A stretch of 64,000 nucleotides of DNA from Eubacteriaceae bacterium (lineage in GTDB: Bacteria > Bacillota > Clostridia > Lachnospirales > Lachnospiraceae). Where the stretch lies: the NCBI GenBank assembly GCA_902362455.1, contig CABIWJ010000006.1, forward strand, positions 1,495 through 65,494. Direction: 5' to 3'. The position numbers and the translations under genes are program-made. Each line of letters begins with the position of its first letter. Within the stretch, counting starts at the first letter, position 1. Below the pieces are notes generated by a model. It did not search any database. It saw only the letters and a program-made list of their open reading frames with translations, and was not told the origin of the DNA. This document shows positions 18,937 through 60,490 of this stretch, piece by piece.

Positions 18937-19094
18937 CTGCGGAAATGGAGATAGTGCGAAAGAATTGCACTGATGTGCCAATTCTTTCGCACAGCTAAAT
19001 GTGTTGCAGGCATCACATTTAGCATTTATCGCAGAGCCAAATCTGACATTTGGCTCGCGATTCCTCCGGCACTTTGTGTCTGCGGAAATGGAGA
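18937..19094 (+). repeat. Structured intergenic element, copy 1 (before folP)
   Basis: About 140 bp that fold into four stems: a 14-bp hairpin GTGCGAAAGAATTG/CAATTCTTTCGCAC (18954-18992), GCTAAATGTG/CACATTTAGC, AGCCAAAT/ATTTGGCT, and a last stem next to the ribosome binding site. A CCTCC in the last stem can pair with the GGAG before folP. The 15-mer CTGCGGAAATGGAGA stands at both ends (18937 and 19080), like a target-site duplication that includes the ribosome binding site. Four other full copies and one partial copy occur in the window. Confidence 0.85.
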
Positions 19095-19099
19095 AGATT

Positions 19100-19915
19100 A
19101 TGAGAATTGGAAATAAGAATTTTGATGTTGAACATAAGACCTATATAATGGGCATATTGAATTGTACGCCTGATTCGTTTTCGGATGGTGGAAAATATAA
19201 TGATATAGACAGAGCTATTAAACACGTAGAAGAAATGATACGTGATGGTGCAGATATAATTGATGTCGGTGGTGAATCTACAAGACCGGGTTATACAATT
19301 ATACCTGATGAAGAAGAAATTGAAAGAGTAGTTCCGGTTATAGAGAAGATAAAGGCTAATTTTGATATTCCTGTTTCAATTGATACATATAAGAGCAAGG
19401 TAGCAGATGCAGCAGTAATAGCAGGTGCAGATCTGGTAAATGACATCTGGGGCTGTAAGTATGATAAGAAGATTGCAGATGTTATAGCAAAGAGAGATGT
19501 TGCGTGTTGTCTTATGCATAACAGAGATTTAGAGAAGAATCCTTATGGAAATGATGTAATGTATGATGTGTTAACTGATTTACAGGAAAGTATAGATATT
19601 GCACTTAAAGCAGGAGTTGCGAAGAACAAGATTATTACTGATCCGGGAATAGGCTTTGGTAAAACATTGCAGGATAATCTTAATGTTATGAATAATGTGG
19701 ACTGGCTTAAGGAATTAGGATACCCAATATTATTAGGAACTTCTAAGAAGTCGATGATTGGACTTACTTTAGATGTACCAAAAGATGAGCGGCTAGAGGG
19801 AACACTTGTTACAACAGTTATGGGCGTTATGAAAGGTTGCGCATTTATAAGAGTTCATGATGTATTAGAGAATAAGAGAGCAGTTGTTATGACAGAAGCA
19901 ATATTGTCGGCATAA
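19100..19915 (+). CDS. folP: Dihydropteroate synthase (FolP)
   Basis: A 271-residue enzyme that joins p-aminobenzoate to the pterin pyrophosphate; the sulfonamide target. Family motifs: GILNCTPDSFSDGGKY, DIIDVGGESTRPG, VSIDTYK, NDIWG and the C-terminal RVHDV. I place the start at ATG 19100 because GGAG lies 6-7 bases before it. Longer frames run into the upstream repeat element and are not credible. Confidence 0.94.
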   Translation: MRIGNKNFDVEHKTYIMGILNCTPDSFSDGGKYNDIDRAIKHVEEMIRDGADIIDVGGESTRPGYTIIPDEEEIERVVPVIEKIKANFDIPVSIDTYKSKVADAAVIAGADLVNDIWGCKYDKKIADVIAKRDVACCLMHNRDLEKNPYGNDVMYDVLTDLQESIDIALKAGVAKNKIITDPGIGFGKTLQDNLNVMNNVDWLKELGYPILLGTSKKSMIGLTLDVPKDERLEGTLVTTVMGVMKGCAFIRVHDVLENKRAVVMTEAILSA

Positions 19916-19940
19916 CAAGTTGCCACTTTGCAAACAAGTT

Positions 19941-20086
19941 GCCGGAAAAAGTGCGAAGATAATGCCGATGCACCAATTCTTTCACACAGCTAAATGTGTC
20001 GCAGGCGTCACATTTAGCCATATCGCAGAGCAAAATCTGAAATTTTGCTCGCGATTCCTCCGACGTAAACGTCTGCGGAAAAGGAG
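19941..20086 (+). repeat. Structured intergenic element, copy 2 (before folB-folK)
   Basis: The second copy, between folP and folB-folK. Hairpin 1 is degraded (GTGCGAAGAT...ATTCTTTCACAC), but hairpin 2 (GCTAAATGTG/CACATTTAGC) is kept. Hairpin 3 has changed on both sides to GAGCAAAAT/ATTTTGCTC, and the last stem to GACGT/ACGTC. The element ends in GCGGAAAAGGAG, the ribosome binding site of the next gene. The left copy of the flank reads GCCGGAAAAAG, so a duplication is only partly visible. Confidence 0.8.
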
Positions 20087-20095
20087 AAATAAGAT

Positions 20096-20896
20096 ATGGA
20101 TAAAATTGTAATTAAAGATTTAGAAGTATTTGGAAAACATGGTGTATATAAAGAGGAAAATGTTTTAGGACAGAAATTCTTAGTAAGTGCCGAGATTTCA
20201 TTAAGTACAAGAAAAGCAGGAATTACTGATGCATTAGAATTATCAGTTGATTATGGTAAGGTATGCCAGTTTATTAATGAATTTATGCAGAAAAATACAT
20301 TTAAACTGATAGAGGCCGCAGCAGAACATCTTGTATTAGGAATATTTGCACATTTTGAATTAATACAGAGTGTTAAAGTTACAATTAAGAAACCATGGGC
20401 TCCTATAGGACTTCCACTTGATTATGTGGCAGTAGAAATTGAGAGAAGCTGGCACAGGGCATATGTGGCATTAGGCTCTAATATGGGAGATAAACTTAAA
20501 TATTTAGAAGATGCTGTAAAAGCCATTGAAAATGATGTTAATTGTAAATTACTTAAGATTTCAGATATTATAGTGACGGAACCATATGGCCCGGTAGAAC
20601 AGGACGATTTCTTAAATGGCTGTATGATGATTGACACACTTTATACACCGCAGGAATTATTAAGATTTCTACAGAAGTTAGAGAGTGAAGCAAATCGTGT
20701 ACGAGAAGTACATTGGGGACCTAGAACATTAGATTTAGATATTCTTCTATATGATGATTTGGTTACCTCAGATGATGAACTTACAATTCCACATCCTGAG
20801 ATGCATAAGAGAGCATTTGTTCTTGAACCATTGAAACAGATTGCACCAAATGCAATTCATCCACTCTTACACCAGAGAATACGCGATATGATATAG
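20096..20896 (+). CDS. folB-folK: Fused dihydroneopterin aldolase and HPPK (FolB-FolK)
   Basis: A 266-residue bifunctional enzyme. Residues 1 to ~118 are FolB, which cleaves dihydroneopterin (LEVFGKHGVYKEEN, with Lys in VTIKKPWAP). Residues ~122-266 are FolK, which pyrophosphorylates hydroxymethyl-dihydropterin: YVALGSNMGDK, GPVEQDDFLNG, GPRTLDLDILLYDD, IPHPEMHKRAFVLEPL. The two steps are consecutive, so the fusion may channel substrate. It completes a cluster folC-folE-folP-folBK; folA and the aminobenzoate genes are not in the window. Confidence 0.94.
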   Translation: MDKIVIKDLEVFGKHGVYKEENVLGQKFLVSAEISLSTRKAGITDALELSVDYGKVCQFINEFMQKNTFKLIEAAAEHLVLGIFAHFELIQSVKVTIKKPWAPIGLPLDYVAVEIERSWHRAYVALGSNMGDKLKYLEDAVKAIENDVNCKLLKISDIIVTEPYGPVEQDDFLNGCMMIDTLYTPQELLRFLQKLESEANRVREVHWGPRTLDLDILLYDDLVTSDDELTIPHPEMHKRAFVLEPLKQIAPNAIHPLLHQRIRDMI

Positions 20897-21069
20897 TGGT
20901 GCAAACAAAAAAACAAGCACCGCTGAAAGCGGTATTTGTTTTTTGGACACCACTATCGAACGAACCTCCTGCGATAGCAGGAGATAAAGCGCGAAGCGCG
21001 GGTTCGTGAGATAACTAAAGGTGAAAAAACAAGTAGCAGAAAGCACATTTGTTTTTTTGGCACCACTAA
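20894..21069 (+). repeat. Hairpin-rich repeat region with two terminator-like copies
   Basis: A stem TAGTGGTG/CACCACTA (20894-20901 with 20948-20955) encloses A-rich and T-rich arms around a small CCGCT/AGCGG hairpin. A second, related hairpin at about 21027-21068 ends in the same TTTGTTTTTT..CACCACTA. Between them are TCCTGC/GCAGGA, GCGCG/CGCG and CGAACC/GGTTCG stems. The arms resemble intrinsic terminators and probably end the folate transcript. The direct repetition suggests a mobile or amplified sequence. It does not match the T-box motif. Confidence 0.65.
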
Positions 21070-21119
21070 GCTAATAAAAAGGAAAGGATATCACACAGGA
21101 TTGTGATTAAGGTACAGAC

Positions 21120-22253
21120 GTGAATCTAGATTTGAATGAGATAAGACAGCAGATTGATGAGATAGATTCATCAATTGTAGATATGTTTGAAAAACGTATG
21201 GAGTTATGTAAAAACGTAGCTTTATATAAAATAGAAAATGGAAAAAAAGTTTTAGATAAACAAAGAGAAAATGAGAAGATAGCAAAAGTAGTTGAATTGG
21301 CTGATAATGATTTTAATAAGCATGGTGTAGAAGAATTATTTACACAGATTATGGCTATAAGCAGAAAATTACAGTATCAGTTATTGAATCAGAATGGAAA
21401 AAGTGATGATATCGGCTTTAAAAAAGTTGATAAATTAGACATTCAGAATGCAACAGTAGTATATCAGGGTGTTCCTGGTGCATATAGCTATCAGGCTATG
21501 ATTAATTATTTTGGAAAAGATGTTAATAACTTTAATGTTAAAACATTTAAAGAAGCAATGGAAAGCATAAGGGACGGTAAAGCTGATTATGCAGTACTTC
21601 CTATAGAGAATTCCACAGCAGGAAGTGTAAGCGATGTATATGATTTGCTGGTAGAATTTGATAATTATATAGTTGATTATACAGATGTTATAGTAAGACA
21701 CGCATTGCTTGGAACTCAAGATGCTACAATTGATGATATTAAGACTGTATATTCACATCCACAGGGATTAATGCAGTGTCATAAGTTCTTAGAAGAACAT
21801 AAAGAATGGCAGCAGATAGCACAGGCGAATACAGCAGGAAGTGCTAAAAAAGTTGTAGAAGAGAATATTAAGTCACAGGCAGCAATTGCCAGTACAGTTG
21901 CAGCAGAGATTTACGGATTAAAGGTACTTGAAGAAAATATCAGTTATAATGATAAGAATACCACAAGATTTATCATTGTAAGCAAGAACAAAATATATAC
22001 TGAAGATGCTACTAAAGTGTGCGTATGTTTTGAACTCCCACATTCATGTGGTACATTATACAATATGCTTTCACACTTTATATATAATGGTCTGAATCTT
22101 ACAGGTATAGAATCACGACCTATTGAGGGCAAGAAATGGGAATACAGATTCTTCGTTGAATTTGATGGTAAATTTGATGAAGCGGGAACATTAAACGCAT
22201 TAAGAGGATTGACTGAAGAAGCTAATTCAGTGAAAATATTAGGAAACTATTAA
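21120..22253 (+). CDS. pheA: Chorismate mutase / prephenate dehydratase (P-protein)
   Basis: A 377-residue bifunctional enzyme converting chorismate through prephenate to phenylpyruvate. Residues 1 to ~90 are an AroQ-type chorismate mutase (LNEIRQQIDEIDSSIVDMFEKR). Residues ~110-285 are prephenate dehydratase (YQGVPGAYSYQA, LPIENSTAGSV, NTTRFIIVS). The end is an ACT domain for phenylalanine feedback, including GIESRPIEGKKWEYRFFVEF. It starts with GTG behind AAGG. It stands between the folate cluster and an ATPase gene. Confidence 0.94.
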   Translation: MNLDLNEIRQQIDEIDSSIVDMFEKRMELCKNVALYKIENGKKVLDKQRENEKIAKVVELADNDFNKHGVEELFTQIMAISRKLQYQLLNQNGKSDDIGFKKVDKLDIQNATVVYQGVPGAYSYQAMINYFGKDVNNFNVKTFKEAMESIRDGKADYAVLPIENSTAGSVSDVYDLLVEFDNYIVDYTDVIVRHALLGTQDATIDDIKTVYSHPQGLMQCHKFLEEHKEWQQIAQANTAGSAKKVVEENIKSQAAIASTVAAEIYGLKVLEENISYNDKNTTRFIIVSKNKIYTEDATKVCVCFELPHSCGTLYNMLSHFIYNGLNLTGIESRPIEGKKWEYRFFVEFDGKFDEAGTLNALRGLTEEANSVKILGNY

Positions 22254-22270
22254 AACAGAGGTGATATTGC

Positions 22271-23599
22271 ATGAATATGAATTTAAGAATTAATGCAGGA
22301 AAGTTGATGATTTACAAGAATTTTAAACATCAGGAGTTATTTGATAACTTTGAATGGCTGATTAATAATGCTGATGATGAGTATTACAATGATGAGGACA
22401 AGATAGCCTTATTATATGAGTGTGTGAATGAATTGTTAGAACTGGCTAACTCTTACGGCTTTGAGGGAAATCTGTATCATAATTTTCTGGGCTTTTTACT
22501 GGCAAATAATGAGAATGCATTTTCTACATCATGTGAGATAATTGGTGCACCAGAGGGCAGTATTAATGGTATTGCGATACATGATTTTGAGATTTTCAAG
22601 CAGTTAATGGATTATGATATGACTGAAATAGATAAGGCTCTTAACGTAGATGCAATTTCGATGATTAGTGATTATAAAAATGGTGGAAGAACAAGTAAGG
22701 TATTCAATAAACGTGTAAGAGACAGAATATGTGAACTTACAAGAGAATTAGAGAAGGCAGCAGATGTAGCAGAGTATTATAAATATGTAACAGATTTCTA
22801 TAAGTCATATGGTGTTGGTAAATTTGGCCTTAATAAGGCATTCAGAATTGTTGGAAATGAAGCAGGAGAAGCACAGATTGTACCGATAACAAGTATTGAA
22901 CATATTTACCTTGATGACCTGGTAGGATATGAGCTTCAGAAGAAAAAACTTACTGACAATACGGAAGCATTTATTGAGGGCAGAAAGGCTAATAATGCAT
23001 TATTATTCGGTGATAGTGGAACAGGTAAGTCTTCAAGTATAAAGGCAATACTTAATGAATATTATGATAGAGGACTTAGAATGATAGAAGTGTATAAACA
23101 TCAGTTCGGGGCATTATCTGAGGTTATAGAAACTATCAAGGACAGAAATTATAAATTCATAATATATATGGATGATTTATCGTTTGAGGATTTTGAAATT
23201 GAATATAAATATTTAAAAGCTATTATTGAGGGTGGCTTAGGAAAGAAACCAGATAATGTGCTTATCTATGCAACATCTAACAGACGACATCTGGTTAAAG
23301 AGAGTTTTGAGGATAATGAGGGAATGTCAAGTGGATTACATACATCAGATACAGTTCAGGAGAAGCTTTCACTTGTCGCAAGATTCGGAGTATCTATTTA
23401 CTACTCTGCACCAAGTAAGAAAGAATTTCAGAACATTGTTACAACGCTTGCAGAGAAATATAATATTCATATGGACGAAGAAAAACTTAAATTAGAAGCA
23501 AATAAATGGGAATTAAGTCATGGTGGTTTATCAGGAAGAACAGCACAGCAATTTATAAATTATTTACTGGGATTTAACATAGACGAAACTAAAAATTAA
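22271..23599 (+). CDS. DUF815-family AAA ATPase
   Basis: A 442-residue predicted ATPase of the DUF815 family. Residues ~215-440 hold the AAA core: Walker A LLFGDSGTGKSSS near 242, Walker B IIYMDDLSFE, sensor-like YATSNRRHL. The first ~210 residues are helical and family-specific. Members are widespread in Firmicutes and their cellular role is not established to my knowledge. The gene starts 17 bp after pheA and may be cotranscribed; no functional link is evident. Confidence 0.88.
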   Translation: MNMNLRINAGKLMIYKNFKHQELFDNFEWLINNADDEYYNDEDKIALLYECVNELLELANSYGFEGNLYHNFLGFLLANNENAFSTSCEIIGAPEGSINGIAIHDFEIFKQLMDYDMTEIDKALNVDAISMISDYKNGGRTSKVFNKRVRDRICELTRELEKAADVAEYYKYVTDFYKSYGVGKFGLNKAFRIVGNEAGEAQIVPITSIEHIYLDDLVGYELQKKKLTDNTEAFIEGRKANNALLFGDSGTGKSSSIKAILNEYYDRGLRMIEVYKHQFGALSEVIETIKDRNYKFIIYMDDLSFEDFEIEYKYLKAIIEGGLGKKPDNVLIYATSNRRHLVKESFEDNEGMSSGLHTSDTVQEKLSLVARFGVSIYYSAPSKKEFQNIVTTLAEKYNIHMDEEKLKLEANKWELSHGGLSGRTAQQFINYLLGFNIDETKN

Positions 23600-23795
23600 G
23601 AATATGTATCTATAATTAACTTGTTGCGGAGTAGTTTGTGAGTGTCAAGTCAGGACAAATTACTTTTTGCATCTGACATTATGTCATAGGACTATTTGTT
23701 TCTGGACGTGAGCAGATAGTCATTAAGACATAAGTAAGCTTAATATAAGAGCTTGCAATATTTCCTTGAGACAATCGTTCAGAAATGAGGTATTT
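23600..23795 (+). other. Intergenic leader before ppx with hairpin
   Basis: About 195 bp. A TGACAT/ATGTCA palindrome (about 23673-23686) and a hairpin GACTAT/ATAGTC (23690-23721) lie close together. This may be a structured leader or terminator, but it has no T-run and matches no RNA class I know. Confidence 0.3.
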
Positions 23796-25319: not shown

Positions 25320-25322
25320 ACT

Positions 25323-27431: not shown

Positions 27432-27659
27432 ACTTTTGAGTAGAACGAAAAAAGCAAAGCATAAAAAAAGGAATAAATATTGAAAAATATTGAAGGTATC
27501 ATACCAATGGTGTGGTAACTTTTGTGTTGTGAAAAAAAATAAGGTAACAAATACAAAATGTTAAAAATAATATATAAAATGATAATTTAATTCAATGGTT
27601 ATGGTAGGATAGTAGTTATAATGTGAAAATGATGTAGTTTAAATAAAGAAATATTTTAT

Positions 27660-27688
27660 TTGACAATATAGGATATATCCTATAAAAT
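27660..27688 (+). promoter_or_regulatory. Promoter with 18-bp palindromic operator
   Basis: TTGACA (27660-27665) and TAAAAT (27683-27688) are 17 bp apart. The spacer is almost filled by the perfect palindrome TATAGGATATATCCTATA (27667-27684). The second gene downstream encodes a helix-turn-helix domain, so autorepression at this site is likely, as in toxin-antitoxin operons. The site and promoter are seen; the regulator is inferred. Confidence 0.75.
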
Positions 27689-27714
27689 ATAAAAGAGACA
27701 AAGGAGGAGTTAAT

Positions 27715-27969
27715 ATGCCGGTTATATCAAGATTTCATGGGATTACAATAAAAATGTATTTACGTCAGAAAGAACATAATCCACCGCATATTCATGCCAT
27801 ATATGAAGACTGTGTTGGAATGTTTTCATTAATTGATGGAGAAATGTTTGAAGGTGATATTCCGAGTAAGGGACAACAAATGGTAAAGGAATTTATTAAG
27901 CATTACAGAAGTAAATTGCTTGAAATGTGGGAAACACAAGATTTTGAAAAATTGCCACCTGTTGAATAA
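27715..27969 (+). CDS. DUF4160 family protein
   Basis: An 84-residue protein of the DUF4160 family: MPVISRFHGITIKMY, then EHNPPHIHAIYED typical of the family. No enzymatic motif is evident. A strong GGAGGAG precedes it. DUF4160 genes are often paired with DUF2442 genes, as here, and the pair has been suggested to be a toxin-antitoxin-like module; activity has not been shown here. Confidence 0.85.
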   Translation: MPVISRFHGITIKMYLRQKEHNPPHIHAIYEDCVGMFSLIDGEMFEGDIPSKGQQMVKEFIKHYRSKLLEMWETQDFEKLPPVE

Positions 27970-27998
27970 TAAATAGTAAATGGAAAGGATTGATAAGT

Positions 27999-28469: not shown

Positions 28470-28509
28470 TGATTTAGGTGGTAATAATATTTGTAATGAG
28501 ATTAGAATA

Positions 28510-28562
28510 AAACACTAATTGTGCTATATGAACAAGATAAAGCCAACAATTAGTGTTTTTTT
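28510..28562 (+). terminator. Intrinsic terminator after the DUF4160/DUF2442 pair
   Basis: A 12-bp stem AACACTAATTGT/ACAATTAGTGTT encloses a ~21-nt loop and is followed by a T-run. It separates the pair from relA. Confidence 0.85.
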
Positions 28563-28587
28563 CGTGCATGCCTTAATAGTAAAAATA

Positions 28588-28616
28588 TTGCATTTTGAGG
28601 TAAAACTTATTATAAT
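28588..28616 (+). promoter_or_regulatory. Sigma-A promoter of relA operon
   Basis: TTGCAT and a perfect TATAAT with 17 bp between them, about 95 bp before the relA start and after the preceding terminator. Confidence 0.7.
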
Positions 28617-28712
28617 ATTCTGATATATAGACTTTTGTACTTGTAACAGTATATAGCGAGAATCAAATATTGTAGTCTGATATAAAAAATCTAACAGAAC
28701 TGAGGCGATACC

Positions 28713-31094: not shown

Positions 31095-31097
31095 ATA

Positions 31098-31243
31098 GGA
31101 GTTCAACGTGAAAAATCAAATTGATATGACGATTTTTCACACAGCTAAATGTATCGCAGGCGCCACATTTAGCTCTTATCGCAGAGCCAAATCTGACATT
31201 TGGCTCGTGATTCCTCCGACGTGAACGTCTGCGGAATGGAGTT
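31098..31243 (+). repeat. Structured intergenic element, copy 3 (before MBL gene)
   Basis: The third copy. Hairpin 1 is GTGAAAAATC/GATTTTTCAC, hairpin 2 GCTAAATGT/ACATTTAGC, hairpin 3 AGCCAAAT/ATTTGGCT and the last stem GACGT/ACGTC followed by GCGGAATGGAG. A short flank GGAGTT occurs at both ends 140 bp apart. It sits between relA and the metallo-hydrolase gene. Confidence 0.82.
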
Positions 31244-37896: not shown

Positions 37897-38322
37897 ATGC
37901 CAGCCTAACAATAATAATTTTTCATATAACAGACCTACAGTAAACCATGCAGGGGCATAATCCAGACGGATTATGCCTTTTATATTATATTTGGCTTTGC
38001 TATAATCCCAAGGACAAATATTATGCTTTTTAAGATTTAATCCACTTACATATTCAACTACAAAGATTAATCCTGTATATATACAGCCACGAAAAAAGAA
38101 ATTAAGATTCTTAATTAATTTACTGATAGGTTTAATTAAAAAAGCCATACCATAAATTGGAAACATAATAAGTGACGTATTACAAGATAATTTTTTATCG
38201 TTATTTAGAAAGTTAATCATACCTGTCCATACTACCTCTAAACACCAGCCGGTAATTCCGCATTTAATAAAATCACTTTCATTTTCATATACTTTATTTA
38301 GAATTTTGGTATTATTCTTCAT
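37879..38322 (-). CDS. CmpB-like putative ABC-transporter-type membrane protein
   Basis: A 147-residue membrane protein with about four helices. It resembles the PF06541 family ('putative ABC transporter type IV'): KCGITGWCLEVVWTGM, a middle YGMAFLI, NICPWDYSKAKYNIKG and PAWFTVGLLYEKL. Function unknown. Start chosen at the second Met (38322), because the GGAG supplied by a repeat remnant would otherwise lie within the first codons. It converges with the DUF1294 gene with an 18-bp overlap. Confidence 0.75.
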   Translation of the reverse strand: MKNNTKILNKVYENESDFIKCGITGWCLEVVWTGMINFLNNDKKLSCNTSLIMFPIYGMAFLIKPISKLIKNLNFFFRGCIYTGLIFVVEYVSGLNLKKHNICPWDYSKAKYNIKGIIRLDYAPAWFTVGLLYEKLLLLGWHLRRND

Positions 38323-38368
38323 ACTAATCTCCATTCCGCAGACGTACTTGCCGGAGAAATCCGCTCAT
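38323..38368 (-). repeat. Partial structured element (3' end only)
   Basis: On the minus strand this reads GAGCGGATTTCTCCGGCA..CGTCTGCGGAATGGAGATTAGT, the same as the last stem and ribosome-binding end of the dispersed element (compare copy 5 before ilvD). The hairpins 1-3 are missing. It supplies the ribosome binding site for the CmpB-like gene. Confidence 0.7.
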
Positions 38369-38450: not shown

Positions 38451-38985
38451 ATATTTAAAACTCAAACTTAGCACATATATAATAGAATCAAATCATCTGT
38501 ATTAAGCGAATTTGCATATATAAATATCGAAACTTTTGTAAGAATTGCTAATTTGTAGATATCTTTTTCGGCTCTTTTGATTATTTGAGTTCATTCAATG
38601 CCATACACTTAAACCGATTTGTCCGTCTATGCCACACACTTGATTTATGACGTATCGTGTGCAAGTTATATGCCGTCAGATGCAAATGGTCGGTGCAGTA
38701 AATCACCGTTCAAGCGAAGCGCGTTTGATTAGCTGCACCGTAATAGACTTTGCAGATGACGGCATTTACTTGCACTAGATAAAGGAATTATGAAAGCGTG
38801 TGTCATAGACGGACATCTCGGCTTAAGTGTATGTCTGTTGAATGTACACAAAATTTGAGCCGAAAAAAGATATCTTACAAATTTACACAATTCTTACAAG
38901 GTATTTCGATATTTATATCTGTCAAATTTACTTTAACAGATGGATAATGCTACATATATATGTGCTAAGTTTGAGTTTGAAATCT
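38451..38985. repeat. 535-bp imperfect palindrome (giant inverted repeat)
   Basis: Two arms of ~265 bp, centred near 38717, are imperfect reverse complements of each other. Outer arm: CTCAAACTTAGCACATATAT at 38461-38480 with its exact complement at 38956-38975. Middle: TCTTTTTCGGCTC and TCCGTCTATG blocks recur inverted as GAGCCGAAAAAAGA and CATAGACGGA. Inner: CGGTGCAG at 38691-38698 with CTGCACCG at 38733-38740. No credible gene lies inside. It fills the divergent gap between the CmpB-like gene and tgt. It could be a foldback transposon/MITE or a very long hairpin RNA. Confidence 0.85.
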
Positions 38986-41126: not shown

Positions 41127-42203
41127 ATGGACGAGAAATATATGAGAAGAGCGATAGAGCTTGCTAAGTCTGCAATGGGACATACTTCACCTAATCCGAT
41201 GGTAGGCTGTGTGGTTGTTAAAGATGGAAGAATAATCAGCGAGGCTTGTCATGAAAGATATGGAGAATTTCATGCTGAAAGAAATGCATTGTTAAGATGC
41301 AAGGAAGATACTAAAGGTGCTGAATTATATGTTACATTAGAGCCATGCTGCCATTATGGTAAGACACCACCATGCACAGAGATAATTATTGAAAAAGGAA
41401 TCAGTAAAGTATATGTGGGCAGTATGGACAGCAATCCGTTAGTATCAGGTCATGGTGTGGAAATACTAAGACAACATGGAATTGAAGTCGAATGTGGTAT
41501 CTTAGAAGATGAATGTATTAAGATGAATGAAATATTTTTCCATTACATCAGTACAAAGACACCATTTGTAGCAGCTAAATATGCAATGACATTAGATGGT
41601 AAGATTGCAGCATACACAGGTAATTCTAAATGGGTTACATCTGAGCAGTCAAGACTTCATGTTCAACAGCTTAGAAAAAAATATTCAGGAATTATGGTTG
41701 GGATAAATACGGTTTTAGCCGATAATCCAATGCTGAATTGCAGAATAGAGGAGGGAGTTAATCCTGTAAGGATAATTCTTGATTCGAATTTAAGAATACC
41801 TGAAGATTGTAATATCGTTAATACCGCTAATGATATCAAAACAATTATAGCATACTGTAAATGTGAAGAAGCTAAGCTCGAAAGATTAAGTGAAAAAGGC
41901 ATCACATTTATTAAGACTAAGGGTGAAAGAGTTGATTTGAAAGAATTAATGATTAAACTTGGTGAAATGAAGATAGACAGTGTGCTTATTGAGGGCGGTG
42001 CAAGTGTAAATGCTGCCGCATTCGAAAGTGGTATTGTAAATAAAGTGTATGCATATATTGCACCAAAGATTATTATGGGAGAAAATGCAAAATCTCCGAT
42101 TGGTGGCAAGGGAATTGCACTTATGAAAGATGCAATTAATCTAGAAGATATAACGGTAACAAATATAGAAAACGATATTCTTATAGAGGGATATGTAAGA
42201 TAG
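41127..42203 (+). CDS. ribD: Riboflavin deaminase/reductase (RibD)
   Basis: A 358-residue bifunctional enzyme. Residues 1 to ~145 are the pyrimidine deaminase (HAERNAL and PCCHYGKTPPCTE zinc motifs), and residues ~150-358 the reductase (PFVAAKYAMTLDGKIA). A strong AAGGAGG 6 bases upstream fixes the start at ATG 41127. First gene after the FMN riboswitch. Its stop codon lies inside the left flank of a repeat element. Confidence 0.95.
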   Translation: MDEKYMRRAIELAKSAMGHTSPNPMVGCVVVKDGRIISEACHERYGEFHAERNALLRCKEDTKGAELYVTLEPCCHYGKTPPCTEIIIEKGISKVYVGSMDSNPLVSGHGVEILRQHGIEVECGILEDECIKMNEIFFHYISTKTPFVAAKYAMTLDGKIAAYTGNSKWVTSEQSRLHVQQLRKKYSGIMVGINTVLADNPMLNCRIEEGVNPVRIILDSNLRIPEDCNIVNTANDIKTIIAYCKCEEAKLERLSEKGITFIKTKGERVDLKELMIKLGEMKIDSVLIEGGASVNAAAFESGIVNKVYAYIAPKIIMGENAKSPIGGKGIALMKDAINLEDITVTNIENDILIEGYVR

Positions 42204-42360
42204 AATATCTTCGGAAAGGATAGTGCGAAAAATCGAATTGATATGTCGATTTTTCACACAGTTAATTAGTATCACAGGTGATACTAATTAGCGTTTATCG
42301 CAGAGCCAAATCTGAAATTTGGCCCGCGTTTCCTGCGATATAGAATATCTTCGGAAAGGA
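42200..42360 (+). repeat. Structured intergenic element, copy 4 (before ribE)
   Basis: The fourth copy, inside the rib operon. Identical 21-mers (ATAGAATATCTTCGG plus AAAGGA) stand at 42200-42220 and 42340-42360, a clear target-type duplication that includes the ribosome binding site of ribE. Hairpin 1 is GAAAAATCGA/TCGATTTTTC. Hairpin 2 has a different sequence from the other copies but pairs perfectly (TAATTAGTATCAC/GTGATACTAATTA), which is strong covariation. Hairpin 3 is GCCAAAT/ATTTGGC. Confidence 0.88.
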
Positions 42361-48660: not shown

Positions 48661-48708
48661 GGTTTTTAAGCCGTATTTCAAAGAATCCAGAGAGGAGGTT
48701 CAAACGAT

Positions 48709-55000: not shown

Positions 55001-58000
55001 ATCCTATCCACAGATCAGCGATGACGGGAAGGTATTGGCCTACATCAACGACGGCAACAGCAGCAGTATTTACGATAGCCGGGCGCATTTCTCCACCCTC
55101 AATGGCGGCGTCTATACTCTCTCTAGTGAAATTGACGCTCCAGCAGAGTTCCCAGGCTACGGCGACACGAGCATTTCTTTGTCTGGCACTGGCAGCTTCG
55201 CGGCGGCGGCTTGGGTTCGCATGGGCACTAACCTTCCGGGTAAAAATGCCGGTGATCCCGTGACATTGGAAGAGCAAAACCTGCTGATGAACAGCACGGA
55301 GATCGTAGTGTCCGTCTATGACGGCACAACCTGGACTTCCACCCGCCTAACCAACGACGGCACGCCAGATCTGGCCCCAGTCACGGCAGTGGGCGGCGAC
55401 GGCAAGGCCATCGTGTTCTGGCGCAGCGTCTACACCCCAGATCCCGGTACGCAGGGCAGCAACTTGCTGAACTTCACGACCAGAGATTGTATCATGTACT
55501 GTTGCTATGACAGGAATAATGGCACCTGGAGCGAGTCCAAAATGCTTTATAATGGTGCTACTGGCAGCGTGAAGGCGTTGCAGGCGGCCATGCTGCCCGA
55601 CGGAACAGCTATGGCGGTTTACTCGCTGGACCGCAGCGGAACCGGAGATACCTCCGCCTACGAGATTGCCTATTGTACCGTGGCTGCTGACGGAACTCCT
55701 GGTACAGCCATGCTGGCGACCTGTGACAGCAATCTTGACGAAAACCCCCAGGTCGTTGCAGCCAACTTCGGCAGCGGGGATGACCGATTTGTCATCGGTT
55801 GGCACAGTATCCGAGACGGCAGCAGCGATATTCAGCTGTTGGCTGTGGACGGAAGCGGCACCATGTCCAACAGTTTCCCAGGCTCTTTGTCTGCCCTGAC
55901 CAGCAGCGGCAACGCCGTCGTGGGCGGAGACTTCCGCTTCGCTTCCCTCAGCGGGGATCATCGCAGCCTCAATGATCTTACCATTGTCTGGAATGAGACT
56001 GTCAATGACGTCAACGGCGCGGTAAATCACGGCATTTTGAAGGCGGCCAAGCTGCGCTATGCTACAAATACCTACACTCTCTCCGCACCGTTGGAACTGG
56101 CAGAACTGCCGGATCGCACGCTGGCTGACCACTTTGATGCCTATGTCAGCGACAGCAATCAGGTGCAGGCTGTCATTCAGGCTACCTTCTATGACGATGA
56201 AAATCCGCAGGTAATCGGCGGCGTGACCGTTCCGGGTGAGAAAACGAACCTCTATACCGTTACCTCTGATTTTGTCACCGATGCGGTGGCAGTGGAACAG
56301 ATCGGTGTGGATTATGCAACGCTGGCGTTGAACAGCCTGACACCTATTCGCTTTACCATCCGCAACACCGGGCTGAACGATGTGACAAACCTAAAGGTCA
56401 GCATTGGCAGCGGGGAAACCGCCACCCTTACGGAAACACTGCTGCCAAATGAAAGCACCACCCTTACCGTCTGGCACCATGTGGGGAACCTCGTGACCAA
56501 CCCGAGCTATACCATCACCGCCGCCAGCGGCATCAACGAAAAAGGCACAGTGTATCTGGATTATCCCGACATTGGGATCTCGCAAATGGAAGTGATTGCG
56601 GAGAGCGCCGGCAAGCGTACGGTGCGCATGACCCTCTATAATTCCTCTGCCGCCACTCTGGCTGGCAAAAAGGGTCGCGAGGTGAAGCTTGCGTTCTATG
56701 CGGATGATCTGCATACCAAACATGCAGAGGTAGCCTGCACCACAAACGGCGTATCGGTTCGCGATAATGAAATCACCATTTCCGAAGACAGCGCCCTCGC
56801 CCGCATCGATCAGGGAACCTTTACACTGGACCTGACCTATGATCTGGGCAAGTATATGAACTCTATTGGCAAAACAGAGATCCCAAATGTGGGTACCTAT
56901 CTGTACGCCGAGGCGTGGGCGGAAGGTCAGATCGGTGGAACGGGAAGCAATCAGCGCCTGCCGGAGTATGACGGCAGTGACAGCGAGGCCAGCGTCCATA
57001 TGACTGGCGCACTGGCCCGCACCGGAGAGCGGATGACGATGGATGTGACACAGGGAAACGACGGCAACGGTCACAGCACCGCAGCCATTACCCTGCGCAA
57101 CAACTCCCTGCAGTCTCAGACTAGCGCAATGCTGGTGGCCACACTGCTGGATGCTGACGGGACCGTTCTGGAAACGAAAAAGACCAGTATTGGCGGTGCC
57201 ATCTACGGGGAAACCTTCCAGACGGAAACCGTCACCTTCTCCCGGCTTGGCACCCGCGTAGTGGTGCGAGCCGCAGTGCCTGGTAATGACCTTCTGACCT
57301 TTGAAGGTCTGGCAGTGGGACTCGGCGATTTTACCGCCAACGGAACGAACTATACCTATACGCTGCAAAATGATAGCGGAGCAACATCTACGCTAGTCAC
57401 AGCGATGTCTGGAAACGGCGAGCCCGTGAGCATCAACGGACAGGCTATGTCCACCGGCGGCAGCGCAAACGTTGCTATCCCCGACAGCGGCACAACCGAC
57501 ATTGTCGTGGGAATCGGTGCTAAAACCTACACACTGACGATTCTGCGCAATAGCGGCGATGAGCATACTCACAGCTACGGCAGCGAGTGGAAGAACGATG
57601 CAGACAACCATTGGTATGAGTGCTCCTGCGGCGATAAGAAAGATGTTGCAGCACACACCGCAAGCGACTGGATTATTGATACACCGGCAACGGCTACCAC
57701 AAGCGGCTCAAAGCATAAGGAATGCACCGTCTGCGGTTATACGATGACAACCGAAACGATTCCGGCAACCGGCGGCGATGAGCATACTCACAGCTACGGC
57801 AGCGAGTGGAAGAACGATGCAGACAACCACTGGTATGAGTGCTCCTGCGGCGATAAGAAAGATGTTGCAGCACACACCGCAAGCGACTGGATTATTGATA
57901 CACCGGCAACGACTACCACAAGCGGCTCAAAGCATAAGGAATGCACCGTCTGCGGTTATACGATGACAACCGAAACGATTCCGGCAACCGGCGATGAGCA

Positions 58001-58598
58001 TACTCATAGCTACGGCAGCGAGTGGAAGAACGATGCAGACAACCACTGGCATGAGTGCTCCTGCGGCGATAAGAAAGATGTTGCAGCACACACCGCAAGC
58101 GACTGGATTATTGATACACCGGCAACGACTACCACAAGCGGCTTAAAGCATAAGGAATGCACCGTCTGCGGTTATACGATGACAACCGAAACGATTCCGG
58201 CAACCGGCGGCAGTGAACATACTCACAGCTACGGCAGCGAGTGGAAGAACGATGCTACGAACCACTGGCATGAGTGCTCCTGTGGCGATAAGACCGATAA
58301 GGCGGTGCACGACTTCAAGTGGATTGTTGACAAGGAAGCGACCGCAACGCAAAAGGGCTCTAAGCATGAGGAGTGCAAGGTTTGTGGCTACAAGAAGGCA
58401 GCAGTTGAGATTCCGGCTACCGGCTTCACAACAAAACCGATCGATTCTACGCAAACCAACCCGAGCACTGGCGCAGAAAGCACGAAAACCGGTGACAACA
58501 GCAATATGATCCTCTGGATCGCACTGCTGTTTATCAGCGGCGGTGTTCTGAAAGGTGTAAAGGTATTTGATAAAAGGAAAAGACATTACGTCAAATAA
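49059..58598 (+). CDS. Giant exported surface protein, 3179 residues
   Basis: It has a signal peptide (KKRILSILLLCCMLLNMLP, cleavage after AFA ~25). The bulk is a chain of beta-rich modules: an Ig-like segment at ~510-605 (DAPTIQSVTAPAGIYARG), BIG2-like modules at ~745-845 (GKWSSSDPRIATIDEDTGVVTT) and ~1130-1205, a large central region (~1650-1900), repeated propeller-like strands at ~1980-2400 and a CARDB-like module at ~2410-2490. Four ~72-residue His/Cys repeats (2834-3124) follow. The end has TKTGDNSN, a hydrophobic helix (~3149-3168) and KRKRHYVK, a cell-wall sorting-signal layout lacking a true LPxTG. High GC codon use unlike the host. A surface adhesin or sensor role is inference; no catalytic motif was seen. 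Confidence 0.9.
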   Translation: MKKRILSILLLCCMLLNMLPTAAFASVSDSLDNTPEENQAILEQLSALTGGSNDQVLSMLNALGLLDEAGNLKVDQTITLDGQVLTLAAVMELLENPATDLTRIADVDGTPVALGDLKTMIQIEQELQWIKDTYFSGREFTGEALENLNSLMEQLELQGISLRYSASATAPEGVETVDMSGMMRQTLGREAYNNKWDSGTFAVYSGKPVGFSYRIKKGQLSKYITDVKVSIYGTSGVKQSDGSYKLTYQYDSPNSILSGCKITVEVTTEGSNPGWLKDSYSYGDLLGMIEFYDAENLVFYDGAGYADHCQLKLIKTVDAPAIKTSMTAPNYEKTLKNTDTLYADMYIPLLADGYNAGDGANNQDFVALSDTIGILEGARNSVLPGGSSPFYQPYQIDASIRFEWNGKADAYTGNAPYGWYKNRPYAPFYLTEYKLNGTSLELSSERMSALNCTIQKDSTVSISLQSTTQNRGDQRYYLPFELYLRNVNGDQQNTSATTKTSNATTRLLDTDAPTIQSVTAPAGIYARGQHVPITVTFNEFVDLRNARVTINGKEYTAAELSMNDYGVTAMLWYPVQDMDATTVTVNGMTGVKDVFGHPLDTTQYPSEPITGVTLKSVLMRNAPTALTAVYDNGKASFTMNANMEQAYKTVYSNYHTREGTEPKEAPFRLELRYDSATEPIHLQVYLDTEKEAFTISDYAIALAVYTRTYTVMLQANEGTKDAPNWVNVLPLTRQFKVPKKVSVSTVNVVPEENDVDYTISLAEAARPTLRAEVLGAGDVPASYTTGKWSSSDPRIATIDEDTGVVTTTGTEVGTVTFTFTADNGTEDTADDVTGQSKSYTVTAGNSLALVIPGGSSIVTRVNQPATVLWSSNVALMAPNKEFNYKIDLYEGNYANEAALRGRDPVATYTAGKDKNSVRIPENVLSKLSNGNTPAYTVLVSMPHPNAKGENVRLSALAWIIVQAPPATAKLTPPQSIYLKDTDGAVNINWSVENATDGASQQSTLTITRVTEDNNTQVVARERLSDTSGRFSLSLQSVKAGNLKDTYQVVLSVENPGEESPSTDSFPLYVYDADALKVQDDKGNTISKMTMDNTSKVSDSLPTDTAEILQLRQELGLIEYIGINYDEYGWNSFKDGIRWLSSNNNAISVNYKQGGLYEDIRNFSFDSYLPETKMALSGLANGTATVTATHAATGMSATVQVTAKTLKNKFYLFQLTPAAETTLQYTDGKGVSKTVTTNSEGVLALYEPNGIASEVSLRSGSGADIYLGTIYKENLRSGERDATKLQLYPLNTFSLRRVARASVTLITPGGDPLANKTVTVRGGVYKNGGYCETAQLGSRAGALVSGITGDTYTTDAAGNITVYLDSTQFWSAEKGESNTTALSALDQLEYILEISAIDGDKYYPLLLTVNGKLGVDDVMRTAEGVVSLERVPKGEKNKPFIVAQSVDYGLANGQKVDVRNSIGKIGPNSSFKTAILHTTMFLWGEDIANAKNYSLKLADEYGVLPAAQSSSTTQYPFSSIPVVENDLTLTEATMTTSGWIADGKDVGMKTQLSLNGSLLQEKIMPFRVVDLTRVPKVTEDDRVTGILATMKDSSGVNDVDFGGVGDSNILKVLTGRLDDLSGPVDTSVFKMIITPSEDPSVFRAMIWAGYNTLEMEDMDYSEDGVALGANVLTQNLEVGVPGTGDLSQMAKGTYNPNGEYKANSMAGKVTNTDLNLQLEGFYEAEIRYNAEKKEWEVFTVGGGFTAGIGVGFTFSVNAMAGPVPLTATFELGGAIQLDFRTAVRYGQQGEGTELAWSDPTATAVNDFLTTLRINAYVHAFGGIGFDYSVVALKIGLFGNLDVDSQNKFLSRTYLADETKRQINGQALGIKSEVGIKFVATFLFISYEAVIASGTLEGTKTFNDWKTIDNYWNNATSGLSLASLRMAAAQSGMQVASGSATLQSRDYLEQYARTWGQPQQRMMLFSLNSTSGLENIQTNANPTSYPQISDDGKVLAYINDGNSSSIYDSRAHFSTLNGGVYTLSSEIDAPAEFPGYGDTSISLSGTGSFAAAAWVRMGTNLPGKNAGDPVTLEEQNLLMNSTEIVVSVYDGTTWTSTRLTNDGTPDLAPVTAVGGDGKAIVFWRSVYTPDPGTQGSNLLNFTTRDCIMYCCYDRNNGTWSESKMLYNGATGSVKALQAAMLPDGTAMAVYSLDRSGTGDTSAYEIAYCTVAADGTPGTAMLATCDSNLDENPQVVAANFGSGDDRFVIGWHSIRDGSSDIQLLAVDGSGTMSNSFPGSLSALTSSGNAVVGGDFRFASLSGDHRSLNDLTIVWNETVNDVNGAVNHGILKAAKLRYATNTYTLSAPLELAELPDRTLADHFDAYVSDSNQVQAVIQATFYDDENPQVIGGVTVPGEKTNLYTVTSDFVTDAVAVEQIGVDYATLALNSLTPIRFTIRNTGLNDVTNLKVSIGSGETATLTETLLPNESTTLTVWHHVGNLVTNPSYTITAASGINEKGTVYLDYPDIGISQMEVIAESAGKRTVRMTLYNSSAATLAGKKGREVKLAFYADDLHTKHAEVACTTNGVSVRDNEITISEDSALARIDQGTFTLDLTYDLGKYMNSIGKTEIPNVGTYLYAEAWAEGQIGGTGSNQRLPEYDGSDSEASVHMTGALARTGERMTMDVTQGNDGNGHSTAAITLRNNSLQSQTSAMLVATLLDADGTVLETKKTSIGGAIYGETFQTETVTFSRLGTRVVVRAAVPGNDLLTFEGLAVGLGDFTANGTNYTYTLQNDSGATSTLVTAMSGNGEPVSINGQAMSTGGSANVAIPDSGTTDIVVGIGAKTYTLTILRNSGDEHTHSYGSEWKNDADNHWYECSCGDKKDVAAHTASDWIIDTPATATTSGSKHKECTVCGYTMTTETIPATGGDEHTHSYGSEWKNDADNHWYECSCGDKKDVAAHTASDWIIDTPATTTTSGSKHKECTVCGYTMTTETIPATGDEHTHSYGSEWKNDADNHWHECSCGDKKDVAAHTASDWIIDTPATTTTSGLKHKECTVCGYTMTTETIPATGGSEHTHSYGSEWKNDATNHWHECSCGDKTDKAVHDFKWIVDKEATATQKGSKHEECKVCGYKKAAVEIPATGFTTKPIDSTQTNPSTGAESTKTGDNSNMILWIALLFISGGVLKGVKVFDKRKRHYVK
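57561..58430 (+). repeat. Four His/Cys-rich tandem repeats in the giant protein
   Basis: Units begin at about 57561, 57780, 57996 and 58215 (periods 219, 216, 219 bp). The consensus holds EHTHSYGSEWKNDADNHW, then ECSCGDKKDVAAH and KHKECTVCGY, ending in IPATG. Units 1-3 are almost identical in DNA and unit 4 is diverged. The CxCG...CxxCG spacing with His residues looks like a metal-binding mini-domain common in Firmicutes surface proteins. The difference of one codon (GG or G before the next unit) shows unequal exchange. Confidence 0.92.
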
Positions 58599-58641
58599 TC
58601 AAGTATAAGTAACAATTAACGATCCATCACGGAAACATCAC

Positions 58642-58690
58642 AAATACGGCACAGAGGGCATAAAAACCGCTGTGCCGTATTTCTTTCCTT
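58642..58690 (+). terminator. Intrinsic terminator after the giant protein gene
   Basis: A 12-bp stem AATACGGCACAG/CTGTGCCGTATT with a ~15-nt loop and T-rich tail. It closes the island's last operon; base composition returns to AT-rich soon after. Confidence 0.9.
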
Positions 58691-59004
58691 AAGACTGTTT
58701 TTGAAAAATAAGCAATTTCTCGGGCATAACCCAAGATTTTTTTGCCGGATTCCATGTATACTGTGTATATCACACTTATGCATTTTTCATTTTTACCACG
58801 GCAATCGGATACACGGATATCAACAGATACCAAATACAGCGAGGTAATTATGAAAACAAGAGAATACTAAAGAAAAAAAGGGTGTCCTGAAAAAAGGGTG
58901 TCCATTAGGAAAGTGTACAAAATGATATTTCCTAGATATGTTATCCGGTAATTGTTTCCATCCTTTAAAACCAAATTCAGATATCAATTTTTTTTAATTA
59001 GTCA
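58691..59004. other. Right flank of the island, no gene found
   Basis: About 310 bp of mixed composition. It holds a tiny frame MKTREY-stop behind GCGAGG (about 58851) that could be the stub of a lost gene, and two tandem copies of AAAAAAGGGTGTCC (58873-58905). No att-type repeat matching the left side of the island was found by eye. The right edge of the island lies somewhere here. Confidence 0.5.
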
Positions 59005-59033
59005 TTGAAAAATATATTAAAATATTATAAAAT
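59005..59033 (+). promoter_or_regulatory. Candidate promoter for leuB-ilvD-ilvB
   Basis: TTGAAA and TAAAAT with 17 bp between them, in AT-rich DNA. Transcription would start about 20 nt before the leader frame described next. Confidence 0.5.
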
Positions 59034-59058
59034 ATTACCTAATATTCTTCTTATGTAT

Positions 59059-59142
59059 ATGAAGATATGCAATCAGGTAGTGGATATCGACAAAAATTGC
59101 ATAGCAAAACTGCTAGATGTCGCCACAGGGCGACATTTTTAG
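59059..59142 (+). CDS. Candidate leader peptide of leu/ilv attenuator
   Basis: A 27-codon frame with Ile3, Val7, Val8, Ile10, Ile15, Leu18, Leu19 and Val21 (MKICNQVVDIDKNC, then IAKLLDVATGRHF). Eight of 27 residues are branched-chain amino acids, the end products of the genes behind it. Its last codons lie inside a terminator hairpin. No good ribosome binding site is seen, which weakens the case. Confidence 0.4.
   Translation: MKICNQVVDIDKNCIAKLLDVATGRHF
59117..59142 (+). terminator. Terminator/attenuator before leuB
   Basis: ATGTCGCC/GGCGACAT around ACAG, followed by five T. An earlier stem ATGCAAT/ATTGCAT (59067 to about 59101) could compete or act as pause hairpin. It lies between the promoter and leuB, so it must be read through for leuB expression; attenuation by branched-chain amino acid supply is likely. 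Confidence 0.75.
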
Positions 59143-59234
59143 TGTATTTAAAAACAGATGTTAAATATATTAAAAAGTATTTGCATTAACTAAGATAAGA
59201 AGATAATTACAGTACATAGAAAAGAGGGATTTTC

Positions 59235-60320
59235 ATGAATTTCAACATAGCAGTTATGTCCGGTGATGGGATTGGTCCGGAAATTGTTGAAGAAGCAAAA
59301 AAGGTACTTGAAACAGTTGGTAAGAAGTACGGTCACACATTTAATTTTACGGATGTATTAATTGGGGGAATATCCATTGATACATATGGTGAACCACTAA
59401 CAGACGAAGCTATAGAGACAGCTAAGAACAGCGATGCTGTACTATTAGGAGCCGTCGGTGGTGTCGTGGGTAAAGATAAATGGTACGAGCTTGCACCAAA
59501 CTTAAGACCTGAGGCAGGACTACTAAAGATTAGAAAGTCATTGTCATTATATGCTAACTTAAGACCTGCATATCTGTATGAAGAACTTAATGAAGCTTGT
59601 CCTCTTAAAGAAGATATAGCAAAAGCAGGCTTTGATATGGTAGTTGTACGTGAACTTACCGGAGGACTTTACTTTGGAGAGAGATGTACAAAAGAGGTTG
59701 ATGGTAAATTAACAGCAATTGATACACTCACATATACAGAAGACGAGATAAGAAGAATTGCAATAACAGGTTTTGATATTGCAATGAAGAGACGTAAGAA
59801 CGTAATAAGTGTCGATAAGGCAAATGTTTTAGACTCATCAAGATTATGGCAGAAAGTAGTGGCAGAAGTCGCTAAAGATTATCCGGAAGTTAAAGTTACG
59901 AATATGCTTGTAGATAACTGTGCAATGCAGTTAGTAAAAGATCCAAAACAGTTTGATGTAATACTTACAGAGAATATGTTTGGTGATATTTTATCAGATG
60001 AAGCAAGTATGATTACAGGTTCAATCGGTATGCTTCCATCAGCAAGCCTTGGATATAACAAGATGGGATTATATGAGCCAAGTCATGGTGCAGCACCTGA
60101 CATTGCAGGTAAAGATATTGCTAATCCGATAGCAACTATTCTTTCAGCAGCTATGATGTTAAGATATTCATTTGACCTTGATAAAGAAGCTGATGCAGTA
60201 GAAAGTGCAGTTAAACAGGTACTTAAAGATGGTATCAGAACAGTTGATATTATGTCAGAGGGCAACACTCAGGTAGGCTGCAAAGCTATGGGTGATGCAA
60301 TTTGTGAGAGAATAAAATAA
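59235..60320 (+). CDS. leuB: 3-isopropylmalate dehydrogenase (LeuB)
   Basis: A 361-residue NAD-dependent decarboxylating dehydrogenase of leucine synthesis. Motifs: [79 protein letters not shown] and [12 protein letters not shown]. Normal length. GAGGG precedes the start. leuA and leuCD are not in the window. It begins the host-type region after the island. Confidence 0.95.
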
Positions 60321-60335
60321 GATAGTTAGATATCA

Positions 60336-60490
60336 GAATGGAGATTAGTGTGAAAAATACAGATTGATATCTGATTTTTCACACATCTATTTGTGTCGCG
60401 GGCACCACAAATAGCATCTATCGCAGAGCCAAATCTGACATTTGGCTCGCGATTCCTCCGGCACAATGTGCCTGCGGAATGGAGATTAGT
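60336..60490 (+). repeat. Structured intergenic element, copy 5 (before ilvD)
   Basis: The fifth copy. The 14-mer GAATGGAGATTAGT stands at 60336 and at 60477, the right one being the ribosome binding site of ilvD. Hairpin 1 is GTGTGAAAAAT..CAGAT/ATCTG..TTTTTCACAC, hairpin 2 CTATTTGTG/CACAAATAG (both sides changed from other copies), hairpin 3 AGCCAAAT/ATTTGGCT, and the last stem GGCAC/GTGCC. Confidence 0.88.

Follow-up and report, generated by a model that had tools for sequence, protein, structure and literature searches.

A structured repeat of about 130 bases, first noticed in 64,000 nucleotides of DNA from Eubacteriaceae bacterium (Lachnospiraceae in GTDB; assembly GCA_902362455.1, contig CABIWJ010000006.1, positions 1,495–65,494, forward strand; the whole stretch is hereafter called the window), is in our assessment likely to be a non-autonomous mobile element. 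As judged from sequence comparison, it would insert in sense orientation between the Shine-Dalgarno (SD) sequence and the start codon of host genes, and an effect on translation would be a by-product that varies with the site. The repeat belongs to a large, patchily spread family. The observations that carry this reading are the position and orientation of the copies, the duplication of the SD at the insertion site, and orthologous sites that are occupied in one genome and empty in another.

All six sites in the window lie directly 5' of a start codon, namely those of folP, folB-folK, a metallo-beta-lactamase (MBL)-fold gene, ribE, ilvD, and, on the minus strand, a CmpB-like membrane protein gene. 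Five full copies, at 18.95, 19.95, 31.1, 42.2, and 60.35 kb, emerge jointly from the direct repeats D6, D7, and D9 of the window, and the minus-strand fragment (38314–38361) from the inverted pair I1. The full copies score 128 to 165 bits with the covariance model described below, values that are self-matches since the copies were part of the model input. Four hairpins are found in every full copy, as an earlier note on this DNA had described, and the complete replacement of stem 2 on both sides that it reported for the fourth copy is seen in hairpin 2 of the ribE element. The features are listed here with the state of the same site in the nearest genome compared (G001) where it differs; A-type and B-type are two forms of the element that are compared further on.

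18947..18953, plus strand: left SD copy of the folP element (left/right flank match CTGCGGAAATGGAGA)
18954..19089, plus strand: full element before folP (hairpin 1, 18954–18992; hairpin 2, 18994–19023; hairpin 3, 19030–19059; hairpin 4, 19060–19089)
19090..19102, plus strand: right SD of folP, spacer, and ATG (19100)
19949..20082, plus strand: full element before folB-folK, with decayed hairpin 1 (B-type element at the same site in G001)
20083..20098, plus strand: SD and ATG (20096) of folB-folK
31098..31105, plus strand: left SD copy GGAGTTCA at the MBL site (right copy in the window, GGAGTTTA)
31106..31237, plus strand: full element before the MBL-fold gene (ATG 31248)
38314..38361, minus strand: fragment with hairpin 4, SD, and start of the CmpB-like membrane protein gene (B-type hairpin there in G001)
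42200..42220, plus strand: left copy of a 21-base duplication, overlapping the ribD stop codon
42221..42339, plus strand: ribE element, hairpins 1–3 and left arm of hairpin 4 (hairpins 2 and 4 replaced on both sides)
42340..42360, plus strand: right copy of the 21-base duplication, which is the right arm of hairpin 4 and part of the ribE SD
60340..60347, plus strand: left SD duplicate GGAGATTA before ilvD
60348..60480, plus strand: full element before ilvD (not in the G001 ortholog)
60481..60493, plus strand: right SD duplicate GGAGATTA of ilvD, spacer, and ATG (60491)

G001 has 22% of sampled words in common with the window and is about 92–97% identical to it over most of 16.3–44.8 kb and around ilvD. 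The exact core of hairpin 3 occurs 28 times in G001 (15 on the plus and 13 on the minus strand), not once in a reversed control, and not in 19 other genomes, which include 8 congeneric ones. A relaxed core was found in 8 of 299 Lachnospiraceae genomes (298 genera) and in none of 281 genomes outside the family (of 291 genomes drawn from the class, only G001 was positive); both scans use exact patterns, so that diverged copies are missed. The search of related genomes with a covariance model that the earlier note had proposed was made with a model (R1) built from 27 G001 copies and the five window copies, at most 150 candidates being scored per genome. It gave 134 matches in G001 (150 of 1610 candidates scored), 105 in G021, 54 in G022, 24 in G023, 16 in G024, and 1 in G025. 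Matches do not equal copies exactly, since B-type relatives are included and 2 of 59 that were examined are reverse-strand readings of a palindromic copy. Judged by coordinates, G022 is the same assembly as G116, which is 99% complete. A scan of species genomes returned at least 119 stretches, which among the matches listed come from Lachnospiraceae, Roseburia, Clostridiales, Clostridia, Eubacteriales, unnamed bacteria, and two assemblies titled "uncultured Bacteroides sp.". The CAMECH records L042, L044, and L048 belong to one of these two; their assembly (G022/G116) is placed in the family of G001, and the public title looks wrong.

The earlier note also held that the stems differ between copies yet keep their pairing, and this is borne out. 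In the alignment of 59 model matches from G001 stretches and the window, double-sided changes occur at 39 of 43 pairs, 95.9% of cells are paired against a shuffled mean of 80.2% (none of 500 shuffles as high), and double-change cells number 336 against 87 in shuffles, a signal that is lost when the partner is slid. These counts lean towards the model because the alignment was fitted to it; an unfitted alignment (A2) has double changes at 21 of 41 predicted pairs. A bulged A in hairpin 3 is present in 163 of 167 model-aligned matches. The B-type family in G001 has hairpin 1 in common with the A-type. By eye, its hairpin 3 is a different one, although three pairs are again followed by a bulged A, and the internal loop of its hairpin 4 is similar. 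In four places, a B-type copy stands in tandem directly 5' of an A-type copy at the same gene. The B-type elements located are:

L205:7272–7423, L205:8197–8341, L206:6664–6809, L212:15204–15349, L209:2080–2221, and L197:3685–3833: hairpins 3 and 4 differ from A-type

The insertion point lies just after GGRGNNNA, between SD and start codon, and about 8 bases are duplicated on insertion (GGAGNNNA), most clearly in one subfamily; the SD being among them, the host gene therefore keeps an SD. In 101 of 131 full copies an SD-like motif is found at most 16 bases before hairpin 1, whereas a control stretch gives 26 of 131; 125 of the full copies have one after hairpin 4. The two flanks of a given copy resemble each other more than shuffled pairs do, with scores of 9.17 against 6.62 ± 0.33 for 58 of the 59 matches from G001 and the window, and 7.72 against 6.35 ± 0.21 for 105 of 108 other matches (20 shuffles each). 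A test anchored on GGRG could use 74 of the 131 copies, or 55 after removal of 19 in which the left flank resembles an element end, and in these 55 pairs the excess of own pairs is found at +4 to +6 (z 4.5, 3.2, and 5.2), with weak signals at −8, −4, +8, and +9 (z 2.0 to 2.5). GGRG is present in 34 of 53 GTG-type copies and stands exactly 8 bases before the element in 27 of these 34; the corresponding numbers are 24 of 39 with 11 at 8 bases for the GGTTGAATAAA type, and 27 of 39 with 8 at 8 bases for the remaining types. From these counts and the z values, GTG-type copies show a clear duplication and GGTTGAATAAA-type copies a weak one; what tends to agree on both sides is the SD together with three or four bases after it. 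The motif AATGGAG is enriched in left flanks (22 of 34) relative to other SD sites in G001 (26 of 81; p = 0.0018), in a count that omits 24 of 58 left flanks lacking GGAG.

The start of a sense open reading frame (ORF) is found at the right end of 129 of 167 matches (46 of 59 and 83 of 108) and that of an antisense ORF at the left end of 12 of 167, while 26% of random positions have an ORF start, since internal start codons count. Hairpin 4 is followed by GGRG in 120 copies. In 105 of these, a start codon then opens an ORF of 40 codons or more, and the spacing is 6 in 81 of the 105. Among genes of at least 150 codons with GGRG, spacing 6 is seen in 19 of 31 and 38 of 61 genes with the element, compared with 28 of 122 and 70 of 371 without it. 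Sense insertion at the region of translation start is also a property of MIRUs, which are mobile and insert at start codons according to the excerpted account in PMC12548453, and a MIRU-like element, whose internal frame would begin at the left SD and be coupled in translation to the host gene, has to be considered. In line with this, an xTG motif is present in the 5' arm of 108 of 131 copies (TTG 58, GTG 43, ATG 4, and CTG 3), x thus being T, G, or A in 105, and the motif stands at spacing 6 in 40 of 73 copies with a left GGRG. The end of the frame from this left start is, however, not conserved: of the 131 copies, 42 have it before hairpin 3, 22 within hairpin 3, 7 within hairpin 4, 17 near the SD, and 33 inside the gene, and 10 have no start. 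With stops scattered in this way, a coupled internal ORF seems quite unlikely to us, and a conserved leader peptide is rejected or at least weakened on the same grounds.

Orthologous sites bear on mobility. At ilvD, the element of the window is matched by a single GGAATGGAGATTATTATG in G001. The full copy before folP corresponds to an internally deleted remnant at the same place in G001 (contig C97), and at folB-folK the A-type copy of the window has a B-type counterpart in G001. The element is present in both at ribE and at the MBL gene, where the G001 ortholog (L023) has GGAGTTCA on both sides of it. At gatC, the site is occupied in G001 and empty in L096 (RUG13174), and at gatB the reverse applies; GatC was identified by Pfam, and the other gene we take to be GatB from sequence likeness. 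Less clean comparisons are given by L133/L118, with a solo right end, and L054/L145, with a short copy in one and a tandem in the other, and none that is interpretable by L082/L050. In same-genus outgroups, folP and ilvD are both without the element, but the start regions have diverged too far for gain and precise loss at ilvD to be told apart.

A match to an existing Rfam family, which the earlier note had named as a result that would refute its reading, was not found at the element. At gathering thresholds, the window contains an FMN and two c-di-GMP-I riboswitches and nothing at the element; permissive thresholds over 18880–20160 give no match to it; and six loci with other subfamilies return one unrelated match only. 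A known Rfam family is thereby rejected or at least weakened. Nor did the titles and abstract openings that searches of the open-licence literature listed describe the element. Together with the empty sites, the SD duplications, the high copy number, and the patchy distribution, this supports the proposal that the element is mobile and previously undescribed.

Carriage by phages or plasmids was considered as well. The relaxed core has no exact match among IMG/VR contigs, and one G001 copy used as query has no plasmid match and 74–76% matches in three records titled "Bacteriophage sp.". One such record, L260 (MT836788.1, UNVERIFIED), has, in the stretch 6634–8068, the element before a gene that we take to encode enolase from its likeness, and is therefore probably bacterial DNA. 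Phage or plasmid carriage is weakened by these results.

The earlier note had proposed a translational control RNA placed before biosynthetic genes, with a CCTCC-like stretch able to pair with the GGAG of the following gene. A cis-acting RNA of this kind would control a regulon by SD occlusion, CCTCC of hairpin 4 pairing either with GGAG or with the right arm of the hairpin. It accords with the sense orientation directly before start codons, with covariation in all four stems, and with the finding that 94 of 141 copies carry 4 or more bases complementary to the SD (11 of 152 without the motif were dropped). In the window, CCTCC is found in four of the five full copies, and the ribE copy has CCTGC, in which TCCT is still complementary to AGGA, so that all five keep at least 4 complementary bases. 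In the family as a whole, the complement is missing in 47 of the 141 copies, and 42 of these keep the outer stem of hairpin 4, which is present in 120 of 141; the ribE copy is not among the 40 of the 47 that were listed. A conserved anti-SD switch is accordingly rejected or at least weakened. Biosynthetic targets, likewise, are true of the window but not of the family. In G001, where 20 of 28 loci were scanned and 19 gave Pfam matches, the target genes are functionally unrelated and include acyltransferase, flavodoxin, hydrolase, Phd/YefM antitoxin, GatC, Mur ligase, shikimate kinase, Hsp33, PrmA, peptidase U32, ABC-2 transporters, histidine kinase, glycosyltransferase, NAPRTase, MerR, and FliS, and a regulon of biosynthetic genes is accordingly rejected or at least weakened. 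The structure is conserved by covariation, as in known cis-regulatory RNAs, but is not associated with one pathway or ligand.

Mismatch and divergence data point the same way for the most part. Mismatches of the G-T and A-C kinds are similar in number (56 vs 50 of 2394 cells, and 88 vs 67 of 4191). Hairpin 2 favours G-T (15 to 6 and 23 to 9), as expected of a regulatory RNA, and hairpin 3 has G-T to A-C ratios of 8 to 9 and 6 to 14. A tRNA control gave 12 G-T and no A-C in 11 tRNAs, and is weak since the program may draw allowed pairs only. Neutral decay of inserted copies or selection on a DNA hairpin would give such similar counts, with some RNA-level selection possible. Copies common to the window and G001 drift about as their genes do, with 4.9% divergence for the MBL copy and 4.1% for the ribE copy, compared with 4.6 and 3.6% for the genes and 3.2% for the end of relA. 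One copy, L081/L141, differs by only 0.6% between flanks that differ by 7.6 and 16.3%, which would suit a regulatory RNA but could also be explained by selection, conversion, or parallel insertion. Considering in addition that orthologs at gatC, gatB, and ilvD occur with or without the element, a general role in translational control is not borne out, and we regard such a regulatory RNA as improbable. An incidental effect on the translation of individual host genes is plausible.

None of five enzyme families considered as mobiliser is present in every element-bearing genome examined, which were G001, G021, G116, G023, G217, and G082 for reverse transcriptase, IS256, IS110, and ISL3, and G001 and G021–G025 for Y1. 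Y1 transposase has no match in G001, G021, G022, and G023, and is present in G024 and G025. Reverse transcriptase has no match in G116, G082, and G023, and one each in G001, G217, and G021. The IS256-type transposase is absent from all six genomes and the ISL3 type from five of six. IS110 recombinase is found above cut-off in G217, G082, and G021, below cut-off only in G001 and G116, and not in G023, a distribution that does not fit an IS110 (bridge-RNA) derivative; the sub-cut-off matches sit in open frames of about 1,410–1,430 residues and may be Cas9 RuvC domains. G023 thus has no match to any of the five families, and G116 (G022) none to four and only the sub-cut-off match to IS110. As common mobiliser, all five are rejected or weakened by such absences. 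An autonomous or two-part copy with the same ends was not seen in about 421 kb, among the matches listed (no more than four left and eight right ends for each strand of a stretch); many "solo left" matches in that search look like the reverse strand of the palindromic hairpin 1.

These results bear on two further explanations. An ordinary miniature inverted-repeat transposable element (MITE), moved by a resident DDE insertion sequence with common ends, is suggested by the size of less than 200 bases, the lack of conserved coding capacity, the high copy number (134, 105, and 54 model matches per genome), and the target-site duplication, which is pronounced in GTG-type copies and weak in GGTTGAATAAA-type copies; several DDE families typically duplicate about 8 bases. 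The ends, however, GTGTGAAAAAT at the 5' side and reversed ATTCCGCAGAC at the 3' side, are by reading not inverted repeats of each other but parts of two different hairpins. With the IS256 type absent from all six genomes and the ISL3 type from five of six, and no autonomous copy with these ends among the matches listed, we consider a MITE of this kind rather unlikely.

The second explanation is an element resembling a short interspersed element (SINE), retrotransposed by target-primed reverse transcription. By a script threshold, hairpin 1 is missing in 21 of 152 non-redundant exact-core copies with flanks and present in 131, although three of the 21 (L015, L067, and the folB copy of the window) do show one by eye. 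Nine copies (L050, L054, L059, L035, L039, L073, L083, L103, and L105) begin, by eye, near the 5' base of hairpin 3 with the 3' end kept, and at least the short copy L054 has its own GGGGGTAA duplication; some duplications are also longer than 8 bases. Hairpins 3–4 look as if they were a smaller mobile unit. This sample is anchored in the core of hairpin 3 and would not include copies that had lost their 3' half. In the GTG type, the lengths of the duplications cluster at 8, and reverse transcriptase has no match in G082, G023, or the nearly complete G116 with its 54 model matches (as G022). A retrotransposed origin therefore has little probability in our view.

Several observations weigh against a mobile element that duplicates the SD. 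In the anchored test, 57 of the 131 full copies were unusable, GGRG being missing on one side, and a left SD motif, even loosely defined, is lacking in 20 of 131, ten of them among the 39 GGTTGAATAAA-type copies, for which the duplication signal is weak (z at most 2.3). In this type, dominant in G021, the right SD may often have been brought by the element. The comparison of L081 (site 660) with L141 has a right SD that looks element-derived and not duplicated; the low divergence of the copy at that site belongs here as well. Duplications of more than 8 bases exist (21 at ribE, 17 at L203 and L214), of which some, not all, are explained by tandem insertion. The empty ilvD site could result from precise excision, and neither a mobilising enzyme, among the five families, nor an autonomous partner, in about 421 kb, was found. 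The element may be moved by some other enzyme, or by one since lost.

A mechanism for the mobile element can be outlined from the sequence features. A trans-acting recombinase would recognise the hairpin ends and make cuts in the target at the SD that are staggered by about 8 bases. The right copy of the SD stands at normal spacing before the native start codon, and the 5' arm of the element usually starts with GTG or TTG, often 6 bases from the left SD. Duplication of the SD would make insertion nearly harmless, allowing the element to accumulate before many kinds of gene, and any effect on translation would be a by-product differing between sites. Taken further, the target would be the region of translation initiation itself: the insertion machinery would read SD, spacing, and start codon and duplicate the SD, while the pseudo-start codon would rebuild a complete initiation site on the left. 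Whether transposition is self-neutralising in this sense, with a functional site duplicated and not avoided, we judge to be evenly balanced.

Hairpinned DNA, apparently mobile, is thus present in scores of copies in some gut and rumen bacteria, and at such copy number many mRNAs would bear extra hairpins and an extra potential start site. If the proposal is true, a mobile element occupies the short gap that separates ribosome-binding site and start codon, and by duplicating the site it leaves the host gene expressed, which would offer a testable answer to how parasitic DNA invades essential-gene operons in compact genomes. It would point to a recombinase that senses initiation regions, and would caution against taking dispersed covarying structures before genes for riboswitch-like regulons.

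Other repeats were noted in the window. A near-palindromic insertion of 515 bases (38461–38976; arms I2–I4) is not at the syntenic site in G001 (C97) and has relatives elsewhere in G001 (L205, L200); it is a mobile element of its own, MITE-like in kind. At 1–3184, two units in tandem, spaced by about 1.63 kb, each consist of a c-di-GMP-I riboswitch and a related coding sequence. An ORF of 1424 residues contains 27-base repeats (5257–6473), which resemble RTX calcium-binding repeats, and an ORF of 3179 residues contains three direct repeats with a spacing of 216–219 bases (57554–58288).

Among known systems, REP elements are palindromic extragenic repeats linked to RAYT (Y1) transposases, which recognise their hairpins as single-stranded DNA. 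The present element differs in that G001, G021, G022, and G023 carry it without a Y1 match, and target duplication is to our knowledge not a feature of Y1 transposition. The bcr1 repeat of Bacillus cereus is a dispersed, structured chromosomal repeat of similar size; we know of no SD targeting for bcr1. Like the BOX and RUP repeats of Streptococcus pneumoniae, the element is numerous, structured, target-duplicating, and patchy. One S. pneumoniae genome has 125 BOX and 110 RUP copies, structured and in the case of BOX modular, which make target site duplications and which other streptococci, S. mitis excepted, lack almost completely (PMC3049150, in excerpt). BOX and RUP have terminal inverted repeats, which the element lacks, and the excerpted account of BOX, RUP, and SPRITE mentions no SD targeting with fixed sense orientation (PMC3049150). 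The 168-bp Yersinia palindromic sequence (YPAL, or RU-2) has internal and not terminal inverted repeats and also makes target duplications (PMC2229807, in excerpt). The duplications of YPAL vary in length between 3 and 26 bp, and its targets are not SD sequences but sites that span or border dyad symmetry (PMC2229807). In its way of working, the element is most like MIRUs, which are mobile and insert at start codons (PMC12548453, in excerpt). MIRUs have an internal ORF coupled to the gene with a spacing of −4 nucleotides; in the element, the SD instead tends to be duplicated, the internal frame is unconserved, and there are four covarying hairpins. The element lacks both the coupled ORF of MIRUs and the terminal inverted repeats of MITEs, and is probably best regarded as a new family of mobile elements, small and non-autonomous, whose target, the gap between SD and start codon, is unusual.

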